Shown: positions 17,948 through 24,965 of the stretch, in pieces
How the letters are laid out: each line of letters starts with the position of its first letter
How positions within the stretch are numbered: the first letter of the stretch is position 1
DNA from: Anaerolineaceae bacterium
GTDB taxonomy: Bacteria > Chloroflexota > Anaerolineae > Aggregatilineales > Phototrophicaceae
Direction of reading: 5' to 3'
Length of the DNA: 64,000 bases
NCBI GenBank assembly: GCA_007693385.1
Contig: REDR01000042.1
Span: 1-64,000, forward strand
Position numbers and translations under genes: made by a program
The notes under the pieces: generated by a model
Seen by the model: only the letters and a program-made list of their open reading frames with translations
Database searches by the model: none
What the model was told of the DNA's origin: nothing

Positions 17948-19726
17948 ATGATTGACCGTTCCGAGCGTTCCCAATCTCGCAAACGCACGAATCGCGCCCG
18001 TGCGCGTTATGAATCCCGTCGCAGGCGGCCACAGTCGCACGTCGAGCGCGTAGACCGCGACGACTCCGCCGCCGATGCTAGCGATAATGACCATTCTGCG
18101 GCGCGACGCTGGCCGGATCGTGAGGCGCTGGCCGCCGGTACGACGCGCACTATCGCTGATGCGTGGTGGTATTTGCGCCGTAACCCGATGGTGTGGCGTA
18201 GCGCGGCGGGCGCGTTCGTCCTGCTGATCGTGGTCTATCTGCTCAGTTCGCTGTTCTCGGCGGCCATCCCGCGCCGCGTGGATGTGACCGGCATCACCGG
18301 CGTCGGCGGGTTGTCGGTAGCGGCGGCGGCGGATCGTCTGGAAGCGGTGTGGCGTGACGACATCACGCTGGAACTCATCATCGATTCCGGACACACCATC
18401 ACCGTGCATCCCGACGCGCTCGGTATTCAATTGGATGCGCCCGCCACCGCGCAGGCGGCCAAAGATTTAGGCTTCAGCGCGTTGCCGTTCGGCGGGGCGG
18501 TTGAGCCGGTGCTGTCGTTGGATTTCATCGTCGCGCAGAGCTATCTACTCACCATCGCTGATGAAGTCAACACGCGCCCCAACGACGCCCGCTATGAAAT
18601 AGTCGATGGCCGCGTGGTCGGCTTGCCCGGCGAGGCGGGGCGGCGGCTGGATACCACCACCACACTGGATTATCTCTCGGAGAATCTGCCGCTTGTCATC
18701 CAGCGCGGGCGCTTTGAACTGCGTATGACGCCATTGCAGGCCGATTTCAACGATCCTCTGCCGTACATCGAGGCGGCGCAAGCGCTGGCCGAACGCCCCT
18801 TCGAGTTACAGGGGTACGATCCGGTGACGAACCAGTTCTTCACATGGTCGGTGCCGTCGCATATCGCGCTAGGCTGGGTGCGGGCGGGCGCGGGGTCGCT
18901 GGTACTGGATGAGGCCGCGTTCATGCCATACATTGACCGCCTGAATGAGATGTTGCAGGCGGAGGACGACGGGCGCGATCGCTATCTACAGCCGGATGGC
19001 ACGATGCAGATGATCGACACCGCGATCCGCGCCGGTGCATCGCGGGCTGATCTGCGCGTGCGCCATCGCTCCTATACGTATGAGATCGCACGCGGCGATA
19101 GCGGCTTCGGCGTGGCGCGGCGAACCGGCCTGCCGTATTACCTGATCGAGCAGGCCAACAGTGGCCGCGATTTGAACGTGTTGTCGATTGGCGATGTCTT
19201 GAACGTGCCGTCACCGGATTCTGTGATGCCGCATGTACCGGTGCCGCACAAGCGCATCATCGTTGATTTGACCGGCCAATATCTGACCGCCTTCGAGCAT
19301 GGCGAAGTCGTGTTTGAATGGTCGATTTCGTCCGGCGTCCGTAACGCGCCCACGTCGCCCGGCGTCTTTCAAATCCTCAGCCATTCGGAGAAAGCATTCG
19401 GCAGTAGTAACACGCTATGCGACTCCGCCGGTCTGGTCTGCGGCCAGTGGGAGATGAACTGGTTCATGGGCATCTATGAGGTCATCCCCGGTCTGGAAAA
19501 TGGCTTTCATGGGAGCGTGCTATTGCCCAATGGCGGCCTGCTGGGGGATGGGGCGATTGGCACGCCGGTCACGTTCGGCTGTGTGATGTCGCCCGATGAA
19601 CAGGCGCGGATGTTGTATGAATGGGCTGACATTGGCACGACGGTAGAAATTATCTCGCATGAATACCCGCCGACCAGCGATCTAGGCCGCTACGCTCAAC
19701 AACGCCTGCGCGGGGGAGATGTGTAA
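17948..19726 (+). CDS. Membrane-anchored L,D-transpeptidase with LysM-like domain
   Basis: 592-residue envelope protein. An Arg-rich, disordered cytoplasmic N-terminus (1-80) precedes one membrane helix (about 84-106). The extracytoplasmic part has VanW-associated peptidoglycan-binding-4-type segments (about 110-330), a LysM-like domain (about 375-420, RHRSYTYEIARGD to LNVPS) and a C-terminal YkuD catalytic domain. In YkuD the nucleophile is Cys545 within TFGCVM, with the upstream His-Gly in NGFHGS; the common SHGC motif is changed so that the residue before Gly-Cys is Phe. Homologues make 3-3 peptide cross-links in peptidoglycan or attach proteins to it. The same architecture occurs in other Gram-positive-type envelopes. 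Confidence 0.85.
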   Translation: MIDRSERSQSRKRTNRARARYESRRRRPQSHVERVDRDDSAADASDNDHSAARRWPDREALAAGTTRTIADAWWYLRRNPMVWRSAAGAFVLLIVVYLLSSLFSAAIPRRVDVTGITGVGGLSVAAAADRLEAVWRDDITLELIIDSGHTITVHPDALGIQLDAPATAQAAKDLGFSALPFGGAVEPVLSLDFIVAQSYLLTIADEVNTRPNDARYEIVDGRVVGLPGEAGRRLDTTTTLDYLSENLPLVIQRGRFELRMTPLQADFNDPLPYIEAAQALAERPFELQGYDPVTNQFFTWSVPSHIALGWVRAGAGSLVLDEAAFMPYIDRLNEMLQAEDDGRDRYLQPDGTMQMIDTAIRAGASRADLRVRHRSYTYEIARGDSGFGVARRTGLPYYLIEQANSGRDLNVLSIGDVLNVPSPDSVMPHVPVPHKRIIVDLTGQYLTAFEHGEVVFEWSISSGVRNAPTSPGVFQILSHSEKAFGSSNTLCDSAGLVCGQWEMNWFMGIYEVIPGLENGFHGSVLLPNGGLLGDGAIGTPVTFGCVMSPDEQARMLYEWADIGTTVEIISHEYPPTSDLGRYAQQRLRGGDV

Positions 19727-19958: not shown

Positions 19959-19987
19959 TTGACTCCGCCCCTTGCATCGGTTATGAT
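19959..19987 (+). promoter_or_regulatory. Sigma-70 promoter of a small RNA candidate
   Basis: TTGACT (19959-19964), a spacer of exactly 17 bases and TATGAT (19982-19987). This is the best spaced and most consensus-like promoter seen in a gene-free region of the window, and no coding frame begins behind it before the terminator at 20075. Confidence 0.7.
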
Positions 19988-19993
19988 TAGGGC

Positions 19994-20097
19994 AGGTTAG
20001 GGGTGTGGCGCGAAACCCCAAATAAAATTTTCTTAAAAAAACTTTTATGCCCCCCACACCATCTTATGTCAAAGACGCCCCGCACAGGGGCGTTTTT
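19994..20097 (+). ncRNA. Candidate small non-coding RNA of about 104 nt
   Basis: A predicted transcript runs from about seven bases after a strong promoter to a canonical intrinsic terminator, with no credible reading frame. GGTGTGG (20002-20008) can pair with CCACACC (20054-20060), enclosing an inner ATAAAA/TTTTAT stem (20022-20027, 20043-20048). The same 5' bases can instead pair locally as GGGGT (20000-20004) with ACCCC (20015-20019). These two folds exclude each other. No match to 6S, SRP, tmRNA or RNase P motifs was found. It could also be a terminated leader for the S9 peptidase gene downstream. Confidence 0.55.
20075..20097 (+). terminator. Intrinsic terminator of the small RNA candidate
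   Basis: ACGCCCC (20075-20081), loop GCACA, GGGGCGT (20087-20093), then TTTTT. A textbook Rho-independent terminator located 350 bases after the L,D-transpeptidase stop and 79 bases before the S9 peptidase start. Confidence 0.9.
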
Positions 20098-20104
20098 GAT
20101 TCGC

Positions 20105-20136
20105 TATAATAGTGTTACGTGTTCGCACCGGAACAC
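20105..20136 (+). promoter_or_regulatory. -10 element plus inverted repeat upstream of the S9 peptidase gene
   Basis: TATAAT at 20105-20110 is followed eight bases later by GTGTTCGCACCGGAACAC (20119-20136), a perfect 6-bp inverted repeat with a 6-base centre. Located where transcription would begin, the repeat could be a repressor operator or a 5' hairpin. No good -35 is seen. Confidence 0.45.
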
Positions 20137-20175: not shown

Positions 20176-22032
20176 TTGACCGCACAAAACGCACTATATG
20201 GCACATGGCCTTCGCCGGTCTCGGCGGAGATGATGGCGGGGAAACACAGCCTGTATGATGTCGCGTGGGATGGCGCGACGCTGGTCTGGCTGGAAGGCCG
20301 CGCCGGAGAGCATTTTTTGATGGCGCAGGACGGCATCGACGCGCCGCGTAACCTGATCGCGGAGGGCGTAAAAGTGCGCGGGCGCGTCGGCTATGGCGGC
20401 GGCGCGTTCACGGTGGCCGATGGTGTCGTCTACTTCGTCGGCGACGGTGGCCGACTGTTCCGCCTGCCGTTGACCGGCGGCGCACCGCGCCCGATCACCC
20501 CGCCGTTTGGCGGATGCGCCGCGCCCGTCGTCCGCGGTGATCGTGTCGTGTACGTCCACACCGACGGCGGGCGCGATTGTCTGGCGATGGTTGACCGGCA
20601 CGGCGAACGCTGGCCGCGACAGGTCGCACAGGGCGCGGATTTTTACATGCAACCGGCGCTCAGTCCAGATGGCGACTGGCTGGCGTACATCACGTGGGAT
20701 CACCCGCAGATGCCGTGGGATGGCACGCGCTTGATGCTGGCCGATCTGCGCGAGAACCAGCAGAAGACCGCCGCGCATGAAGTCATCGTCGGCGACGCGC
20801 AGACCGCCATCTCTCAGCCGGAATTTTCGCCGGATGGCCGCTACATCGCCTACATCAGCGATGCGTCCGGCTTCGGGCAGATTGTGCTGTATGACCGTGA
20901 CACGCGGACGCACACCGCCATCACCGACGCGCCCGCCGAACACAGCACGCCGGGCTGGATTCAAGGCTTGCGGATGTTCGCGTGGGCGGACGCTTCACGG
21001 CTGTATTACCTGCGGAATACGGCGGGATTCTTCTCCCTGCATCGCTACGAGGTCGAATCCGCGACGCATACACAAATCCCCACCGGCTACACCGCGCTAG
21101 AGCAGATCACGGCCGCGGCGGATGGCCGCGTCGCGTTGATCGCCTCATCCGATAATCAGCCGCCGCAGGTGGTCGCACTGGCTGAAGACCGTCCGGCGCG
21201 TATCCACAGCCGCACCGCCTCCGCCCGCATCACGCCGGATGATCTGGCGCGATGTGAGGCGATCTCGTGGGCGGGCGATGACGGCGAGACGGTTCACGGC
21301 TTGTTCTACGCGCCGCACCATCCGCGCTATACTGGAGAGGGCGCACCGCCGCTTATCGTCATCGTGCATGGCGGGCCGACCACACAAAAGACCGCCGCCT
21401 ATTCAGCCGAAGCGCAATTCTTCGCCACGCGGGGCTATGCGGTGCTGTACGTCAACCATCGCGGCAGTACCGGCTACGGGCGCGACTACATGCGCCGCTT
21501 GCTGGGGAACTGGGGGCGCTATGATGTGGCTGATGCCGCCAGTGGCGCGGACTATCTGGCCGGTCAGGGGCGCGTAGATCGCGGGCGCATGGTCATCATG
21601 GGCGGAAGCGCGGGCGGCTATACCGTCCTGCAATCGCTGGTCAGCAAGCCGAATTTCTACGCGGCGGGCATCTGCCGTTATGGTATCTCCAACCTGTTCA
21701 TGCTGACCGCCGACACGCACAAATTCGAGGCGCGTTATACTGATGGGCTGGTCGGCACGTTGCCGGAGGCGACGGCGCTCTACCGTGAGCGCTCGCCGCT
21801 TTTCCACGCGGACCGCATCGCCGACCCTCTGCTGATCTTTCAGGGGAGCGAAGATCGTGTCGTGCCGCAGAATCAATCCGATGTGATGGTGGCGCGGTTG
21901 CGGGCGCGGGGTGTGCCACATGAATACCACATCTATGACGGCGAAGGGCACGGCTTCGGCCAGCCGGAAAACGTGCGCCACTATCACGAGTCGATTTTGC
22001 GCTTTCTGTCGGAATATGTCATCTATCGTTAG
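20176..22032 (+). CDS. S9-family prolyl oligopeptidase-like serine peptidase
   Basis: 618-residue two-domain enzyme. The N-terminal part (to about 360) is a beta-propeller with PD40-type repeats such as SPDGDWLAYI and SPDGRYIAYI. The C-terminal alpha/beta-hydrolase domain contains VHGGPTTQ, NHRGSTGYGRDY, the nucleophile elbow GGSAGGYT (Ser), the acid in FQGSEDRVVP and the histidine in DGEGHGFG. This is the dipeptidyl-/acylaminoacyl-peptidase layout, cleaving short peptides or acyl-amino acids; no signal peptide is apparent. The start chosen is TTG at 20176, ten bases after AAGGAG. An in-frame GTG at 20119 lies inside the inverted repeat and lacks a ribosome-binding site. Confidence 0.88.
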   Translation: MTAQNALYGTWPSPVSAEMMAGKHSLYDVAWDGATLVWLEGRAGEHFLMAQDGIDAPRNLIAEGVKVRGRVGYGGGAFTVADGVVYFVGDGGRLFRLPLTGGAPRPITPPFGGCAAPVVRGDRVVYVHTDGGRDCLAMVDRHGERWPRQVAQGADFYMQPALSPDGDWLAYITWDHPQMPWDGTRLMLADLRENQQKTAAHEVIVGDAQTAISQPEFSPDGRYIAYISDASGFGQIVLYDRDTRTHTAITDAPAEHSTPGWIQGLRMFAWADASRLYYLRNTAGFFSLHRYEVESATHTQIPTGYTALEQITAAADGRVALIASSDNQPPQVVALAEDRPARIHSRTASARITPDDLARCEAISWAGDDGETVHGLFYAPHHPRYTGEGAPPLIVIVHGGPTTQKTAAYSAEAQFFATRGYAVLYVNHRGSTGYGRDYMRRLLGNWGRYDVADAASGADYLAGQGRVDRGRMVIMGGSAGGYTVLQSLVSKPNFYAAGICRYGISNLFMLTADTHKFEARYTDGLVGTLPEATALYRERSPLFHADRIADPLLIFQGSEDRVVPQNQSDVMVARLRARGVPHEYHIYDGEGHGFGQPENVRHYHESILRFLSEYVIYR

Positions 22033-23560: not shown

Positions 23561-24028
23561 TCATAACAATAGCCGTTCGATCAACGGCACGCCGACCAGC
23601 GCCACCGAGATGATGACCGCCGTCACGGAGGCGACAAACGTCGCGGAGGCGGCCACATCTTTCGCCACTTTCGCCATCGGGTGATATTCCTGCGTGAACA
23701 TATCGACCACCGCTTCTACTGCGGAATTCAGCGTCTCCACCGTCCACAGCAGGCTGAATGTCAGCCCCAATATCACCATTTCCACGCCATGCACGCCCAG
23801 CCATGCCGCCAGCCCGAACACCACAACGCCGCTTAATAGCACATTGCGGATGCTCCGTTCGCGCCGGATCATATACAGCAGTCCGGCGACGGCGTACTTG
23901 GTGCGGTCAAAAAACGTGGTGTTCCAGTTCGCCTTGTACGGCTTGGGATCAACGCGCATCGCGCTGAATACCGAGTTATCCGGCGAGTTGAATTTCGGTT
24001 GTTGCCTATCGTCTTTTCGTTGAGTCAT
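23561..24028 (-). CDS. dgkA: Diacylglycerol/undecaprenol kinase, paralogue 1
   Basis: 155-residue integral-membrane kinase of the DgkA family, phosphorylating diacylglycerol or, in Gram-positive-type bacteria, undecaprenol to regenerate the lipid carrier. The family signature is intact as ETLNSAVEAVVD, followed by HPMAKVAKDVAASA; three membrane helices are seen (about 61-80, 83-100 and 130-152). A polar N-terminal extension of roughly 45 residues precedes the core. It lies nine bases downstream of a second paralogue and shares an operon with ybeY and pgpH, an arrangement known from Firmicutes. Confidence 0.9.
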   Translation of the reverse strand: MTQRKDDRQQPKFNSPDNSVFSAMRVDPKPYKANWNTTFFDRTKYAVAGLLYMIRRERSIRNVLLSGVVVFGLAAWLGVHGVEMVILGLTFSLLWTVETLNSAVEAVVDMFTQEYHPMAKVAKDVAASATFVASVTAVIISVALVGVPLIERLLL

Positions 24029-24037
24029 AATGTCGGC

Positions 24038-24478
24038 CTACCAGCCTAATTTATCAATGAGGGGCGGGCCTAAGATCAACAAGCCCACCAGTACGGATGC
24101 TACCACGCCCAGCAAGACCGCCGCCGATGCGACATCTTTGCCGACCTGTGCCATCGGATGCCGTTCCGCCGATGCCAGATTGATCGCCGCTTCTACCGCC
24201 GCGTTCATGAATTCCGCCATCCATACCATCGTAATCGTTAAAACCAAGATCGCCCAGCGTAGCGCGTCGATGCCCAGCCACAGCCCCAGCGCCACCACCG
24301 CCACCGATGCCACCGCTTGAAGCCATGTGTTCCTTTGCCGCCGCAACATATACAGCCAGCCGGCCAGCGCGTACCCCAGACTAACAACGCGATTGCGGCT
24401 GGTGATCGGGCTGTATTCGTCAGGGTTGATGCGGGCAGTGCCGGTCAATGCCTCTAACCATTTCGGGCGCTTAGTCAT
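24038..24478 (-). CDS. Diacylglycerol/undecaprenol kinase, paralogue 2
   Basis: 146-residue DgkA-family membrane protein, a tandem paralogue of the next gene. The signature reads EFMNAAVEAAIN: the Glu, Asn and second Glu needed for ATP and metal binding remain, but the usual final Asp is Asn and the Ser/Thr after Asn is Ala. HPMAQVGKDVASAAVL follows. Three membrane helices are predicted. Its start overlaps the end of ybeY by eight bases. It may phosphorylate a different lipid alcohol than its neighbour, or be regulatory. Confidence 0.85.
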   Translation of the reverse strand: MTKRPKWLEALTGTARINPDEYSPITSRNRVVSLGYALAGWLYMLRRQRNTWLQAVASVAVVALGLWLGIDALRWAILVLTITMVWMAEFMNAAVEAAINLASAERHPMAQVGKDVASAAVLLGVVASVLVGLLILGPPLIDKLGW

Positions 24479-24965
24479 CGTCCAGCCCTTCCAGCGTCGG
24501 GATGATCGCCTCCGCCACGCCGAGCGCGGCGCAGATGTCGCGCTGATGTCGCCACATCACCGCGCGGTTGGCGTCGGTGTCGTGGTCGAAGCCGAGCAGA
24601 TGAAGCGTACCATGCACCGTCAGCAAGGTTAACGTCCCCGCGATGTCGTGTCCGGCGCGTTGTGCCGCCGCCGCCGTGTACGGATACGCGATGATGATGT
24701 CGCCCACATAGCGCGGCGAATCCGGCACGTCGTCCGGCGCGGGCGGCATGTCGTCCGCCGGAAAAGATAGCACGTCCGTCGGCGCGTCCACCCCGCGAAA
24801 TTGCCGGTTCAAGTCCTGCACCGTCGCAGAATCGCTGATGACCAGCGTCAGGCTACAGCCCGCCGCGTTGTGCTGTGCTAGCGTCGCCCGCGCCGCGTCG
24901 ATCAGCGCGTCGGCAGACACCGGATAACCCCCGTCGTTCTGTATTTCTATCGCCTCATTCGTCAT
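24471..24965 (-). CDS. ybeY: Endoribonuclease YbeY (rRNA maturation factor)
   Basis: 164-residue metal-dependent endoribonuclease needed for 16S rRNA 3'-end processing and ribosome quality control. The diagnostic zinc-binding motif HGTLHLLGFDHD is present near residue 118, and the upstream DVLSFPAD stretch is typical of the family. Start ATG overlaps the pgpH stop by four bases, and the end overlaps the lipid-kinase gene, so the block is translationally coupled. Confidence 0.95.
   Translation of the reverse strand: MTNEAIEIQNDGGYPVSADALIDAARATLAQHNAAGCSLTLVISDSATVQDLNRQFRGVDAPTDVLSFPADDMPPAPDDVPDSPRYVGDIIIAYPYTAAAAQRAGHDIAGTLTLLTVHGTLHLLGFDHDTDANRAVMWRHQRDICAALGVAEAIIPTLEGLDDD

Follow-up and report, generated by a model that had tools for sequence, protein, structure and literature searches.

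A candidate small noncoding RNA family with a conserved helix-loop, promoter and intrinsic terminator in one family of Anaerolineae

The window analysed here, i.e. the whole stretch of 64,000 nucleotides, belongs to the 3.59-Mb draft genome (G000) of an Anaerolineaceae bacterium, in which the RNA locus lies on contig C33. The intergenic region between an L,D-transpeptidase gene and the gene of an S9 prolyl-oligopeptidase-family peptidase, whose TTG start was inferred from AAGGAG, contains a promoter, a helix closing a long loop and an intrinsic terminator, all on the same strand (Table 1).

Table 1. Features of the RNA locus and its flanking genes (window positions)
Feature	Position	Strand	Support or remark
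L,D-transpeptidase (YkuD, PG_binding_4), upstream neighbour	17948..19726	+	Syntenic in 31/51 loci
-35 hexamer TTGACT	19959..19964	+	TTGAC(A/T/G) kept in nearly all relatives
-10 hexamer TATGAT	19982..19987	+	17-nt spacer; family consensus TATACT
Predicted RNA, ~104 nt	19994..20097	+	Inferred from promoter and terminator positions
Helix 1, 5' strand GGTGTGG	20002..20008	+	Covariation; pairing probability
A/U-rich loop	20009..20053	+	51-member loop alignment; mostly unstructured
Helix 1, 3' strand CCACACC	20054..20060	+	Covariation; pairing probability
Intrinsic terminator ACGCCCC-GCACA-GGGGCGT and T tract	20075..20097	+	Compensatory changes across relatives
S9 prolyl-oligopeptidase-family peptidase, downstream neighbour	20176..22032	+	Syntenic in 39/51 loci

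The TTGACT-N17-TATGAT site has 10 of 12 matches and is the top promoter-like site within 4.5 kb. The start of the predicted RNA was placed 7 nt past the -10 box, and its end was taken as the T tract. The initial annotation had reported this promoter followed by a terminator with no reading frame between them, and the locus is as it described: no ORF of at least 60 aa lies between the two in the window, and a closed ORF of at least 12 codons is found in just 14 of the 51 family members introduced below. The terminator was missed by a consensus scan, apparently because base pairing of its stem can continue into the T tract, and it is clear in RNA folding; the whole RNA is 4.3 SD more stable than shuffled sequences. 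Shortly 3' of the terminator there is a TATAAT box (20105-20110) that lacks a -35 partner. Several relatives also have -10-like boxes after the terminator, which may be used by the S9 gene. Promoter-like and terminator-like sites, each taken alone, occur at chance level in this region, so that a single sequence proves little. It is conservation across relatives, rather than the match in any one sequence, that argues against a chance origin of the locus.

When 61 relatives were searched at the DNA level, one partial match lay upstream of an S9 gene (G025) and one beside an L,D-transpeptidase gene (G014). Both share the order promoter, GTGTGG, A/U-rich loop, CCACAC and terminator. A strict pattern search added a further case (G077), while the reversed control pattern gave no matches. 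Covariance models built from 4 (R1) and then 29 (R2) sequences were searched against the family and the order, and each weak match was read individually before being counted. The resulting RNA family has one member per genome in 51 of 98 same-family genomes of the class Anaerolineae and is represented in 18 of 24 genera, with per-genome best matches at E values of 1e-16 to 1e-6; the carriers among the relatives include metagenome-assembled genomes of Anaerolineae/Chloroflexi. In one genome a second, identical copy lies on a different contig and probably reflects duplication in the assembly. Many of the genomes searched are fragmentary. Outside genus g17, only about 80% of the family genomes yielded a member, and the helix form is absent in the 34 genomes of that genus.

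Matches in five genomes (G140, G151, G065, G013 and G028) were rejected as false positives. Those with E values up to 0.01 outside the family (i.e. in the order, class and phylum) looked on reading like chance matches, among them ordinary terminators that follow coding sequence, and three pattern matches in Clostridia and Pseudoglutamicibacter were likewise attributed to chance. A 38-bit match in a genome of another family of the same phylum (G812, L160), which is AT-rich with a 5-bp stem and a terminator, is either a distant relative or a chance match. Terminators of near-identical sequence (CGCCCCGCACAGGGGCGTTTTTG and similar) were encountered in the family at loci that are unrelated to one another (L003 and L005), and homology therefore cannot be read from the terminator alone.

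Expression signals are conserved along with the RNA. A TTGAC(A/T/G)-16 to 18-TATACT-like promoter with at least 9 of 12 matches was found in 46 of the 50 loci scored, compared with 5% of control windows, and the distance from its end to the helix is 12-23 nt in almost every case; the promoter was not recognised in G030 and G075. The terminator forms with a probability above 0.8 in 50 of the 51 members. Four features expected of a stand-alone small RNA gene, namely its own promoter, its own intrinsic terminator, a conserved secondary structure and no fixed flanking gene, are found in this family.

Helix 1 lies near the 5' end of the RNA and is 8-9 bp long across the family. The A/U-rich loop that it closes measures 31-49 nt (median 36) and is mostly unpaired. 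The helix sequence differs among relatives (e.g. GTGTGGAGC/GCTCCACAC, GACACAGAG/CTCTGTGTC, GGCTGAGG/CCTCAGCC and GCGCAGAGA/TCTCTGCGC). In an alignment of 49 members that had been fitted to the structure, both sides change at 9/9 pairs of helix 1 and at 7/9 pairs of helix 2 (the terminator), paired cells make up 95.7% against 80.8% in shuffled and 36-61% in slid controls, and 148 doubly changed cells were observed against 34 in shuffles. An earlier MAFFT alignment, which was not fitted to the structure, gives the same signal at 8/9 pairs. Judged by this covariation, the helix sequence changes freely with compensation and the stem is real. The covariance check in related genomes that the initial annotation had proposed thus found compensatory changes at all helix 1 pairs, and the conservation of promoter, stem and terminator supports the proposed small RNA gene with signals of its own for start and termination. 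The two mutually exclusive folds that had been suggested are not supported: the local GGGGT/ACCCC pairing has a probability of about 0 and is 3-4 kcal/mol worse, and the ACCCC partner is absent in relatives. The window member is among the weaker folders of the family, and its 7-bp helix GGTGTGG/CCACACC forms with a probability of about 0.55.

The loop is conserved as sequence. Its core reads A-rich/YUUHUUNAADARA/U-rich-CC (AAATAAAATTTTCTTAAAAAAACTTTTATGCC in the window), with core positions 80-98% conserved in the alignment of 51 loops. A possible inner A-U helix within the loop was discarded, because RNAalifold found none and the mean z against loop shuffles is only -0.64. In 12 of the 34 g17 genomes we observed a shorter RNA candidate without helix 1 (L135-L140, L148, L152, L154 and L157), consisting of a promoter, mostly of the TTGACA type, a AGATTTATTNNAAGCARATTTATT-like core, CATCCCCC and a ACGCCCCG terminator; in some of these genomes it lies 5' of a gene that by eye resembles an M20-type amidohydrolase gene. 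This shorter RNA may be a helix-less relative that has retained the loop core.

We then compared the RNA with known RNAs. No Rfam 15 family reaches its gathering score at the window locus or at the loci of 20 relatives, in line with the earlier view that it matches none of the standard housekeeping RNAs checked. The literature searched on small RNAs in Chloroflexi, Chloroflexota and Anaerolineae contained almost nothing beyond a single passing mention and a 2010 motif survey (PMC2864571). That survey describes the Chloroflexi-1 motif (RF01698), a candidate RNA of the same phylum reported from Chloroflexus aggregans, to which the window locus has no match even at E values up to 10. The 6S RNA (RF00013) resembles the present RNA in being a stand-alone gene with one copy per genome and in having a stem with a large unpaired region; however, the present RNA is half as long and has a terminal loop instead of the 6S internal bulge. 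RF00013 has no match at the locus, and a separate 6S RNA is found in the same genome (G000:C5, 86.5 bits). The Y RNAs of the bacterial Ro system also have a stem closing a large pyrimidine-rich loop and a 3' U run, but a Y RNA is unlikely here, because the TROVE protein is absent in the source genome and in most tested carriers; nor does the locus lie beside such a gene. TROVE (Ro-type) proteins were found in 6 of 26 searched relatives, including the genomes of L162 (G002) and L163 (G005), so that the order does contain a bacterial Ro system.

Base-pairing small RNAs that act without Hfq and expose C-rich or U-rich loops are found in Gram-positive bacteria. The present RNA shares with such RNAs a short stand-alone intergenic gene with its own promoter and intrinsic terminator, a stem, an exposed unpaired stretch and a genome without Hfq; it differs in having no sequence or Rfam relation to them and in its A/U-rich loop with a specific core. 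The RNA matches no catalogued family and is new as a family, though familiar in kind.

On the basis of its computed conservation, helix, promoter, terminator, single copy and independence from S9, we consider the locus, with somewhat better than even confidence, to be a stand-alone gene for a noncoding RNA of ~85-105 nt with its own promoter and terminator and a conserved helix-loop, the loop of which would act in trans without Hfq. The RNA would be transcribed from its own sigma-70-type promoter and end at its own intrinsic terminator, and helix 1 would present the A/U-rich loop as the putative working part. A helix that covaries freely, together with an open loop conserved in sequence, points to the loop as the active part. 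Hfq was absent in all 26 genomes searched, while five control genomes were positive. Pairing of the loop with ribosome-binding regions of mRNAs appears to be the likelier mode, because its U-rich-CC part can base-pair with A-rich sequence of the Shine-Dalgarno type; protein binding is the alternative. C-rich triplets near the 3' end of the loop are found in 27 of 51 members, compared with 15.7 +/- 3.2 in shuffles. For complementarity of the loop to GGAAAAAAAA the mean z is -1.24, a weak signal that is overstated because the members share ancestry. Together these values give a hint of Shine-Dalgarno pairing.

An alternative is that the RNA is a cis-acting terminated leader (attenuator) of the S9 gene. 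In this reading the promoter would be that of S9, with read-through decided by a ligand or protein bound to the helix-loop. Promoter, structured RNA, terminator and gene follow one another here as in attenuating leaders and riboswitches generally, and S9 lies directly 3' and co-directionally in 39 of the 51 loci, a count made after one false motif match (L055) had been dropped. The earlier suggestion of a terminated S9 leader is consistent with this synteny but does not hold as a general account. The other 12 loci do not agree with it: S9 is absent downstream, and the next gene encodes, for example, a lipoprotein (G014), an FHA-response regulator or similar (G082-G084), an SSB (G088) or a Vut_1 vitamin transporter (G030). 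In at least three loci the next gene is convergent (an isocitrate dehydrogenase gene in G031, a cyclophilin gene in G074 and a nitroreductase gene in G075). The RNA retains all its parts at loci with a non-S9 or convergent next gene, and we conclude from these 12 loci and the convergent neighbours that it is not simply an S9 leader.

Pairing analyses also speak against attenuation. In contrast to attenuating leaders and riboswitches, the RNA has neither a constant downstream gene nor a conserved antiterminator: none was found among the members, in which pairing of a domain with its own terminator arm is no stronger than its pairing with the arms of other genomes. The loop likewise pairs with its own S9 start region no better (-8.55 kcal/mol) than with those of other genomes (-8.58 kcal/mol). 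Several loci also have a separate -10-like box (TATAAT, TACAAT or CATAAT) between the terminator and S9. In 11 loci, by contrast, the S9 start codon lies only 19-36 nt past the terminator, which leaves no space for a separate promoter; transcription from the RNA promoter through the terminator is the simplest source of S9 mRNA there and probably contributes to it. The position of S9 after the RNA in 39 of 51 loci and its closeness in 11 suggest some cis link. Taken as a full explanation, the S9 leader appears unlikely; the stand-alone RNA that we prefer is compatible with its promoter probably also driving S9 through terminator read-through in a subset of genomes.

Another possibility, which we regard as quite unlikely, is that the RNA binds a protein or serves as a scaffold, with the YUUHUUNAADARA loop as the site of contact; it could be, for example, a second RNA that binds RNA polymerase, or a sponge for an RNA-binding protein. 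A loop core conserved as sequence and not as pairing, on a helix that changes freely with compensation, is what would be expected of a stem presenting a recognition loop; against this, 6S RNA is present separately and the Ro-type protein is missing from most tested carriers. A non-functional origin, i.e. a chance combination of promoter, terminator and stem or a conserved DNA site, could appeal to the chance-level frequency of the single sites but is highly improbable given the covariation at every helix 1 pair relative to shuffled and slid controls and the promoter-helix-terminator order fixed in 18 genera.

The stand-alone small RNA favoured here belongs to a family defined by covariance alignment, promoter and synteny and can be probed directly. 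It offers an entry point to post-transcriptional control in Chloroflexota, none of which is described in the literature searched. It also illustrates how features picked out visually in a single raw sequence, here a promoter, a stem and a terminator, can be confirmed when covariation is examined in 18 genera. A more speculative extension, to which we give little credence, is that it has a core regulatory role in this one Anaerolineae family and that its conserved loop would work neither by Hfq-style seed pairing nor by 6S mimicry (e.g. through recognition by an RNA-binding protein specific to the lineage); g17 would then have kept the same loop without the helix.

Elsewhere in the window, the minus strand carries a tandem pair of prokaryotic diacylglycerol kinase-family genes (DAGK_prokar) at 23561-24028 and 24038-24478, adjoined by YbeY at 24471-24965.
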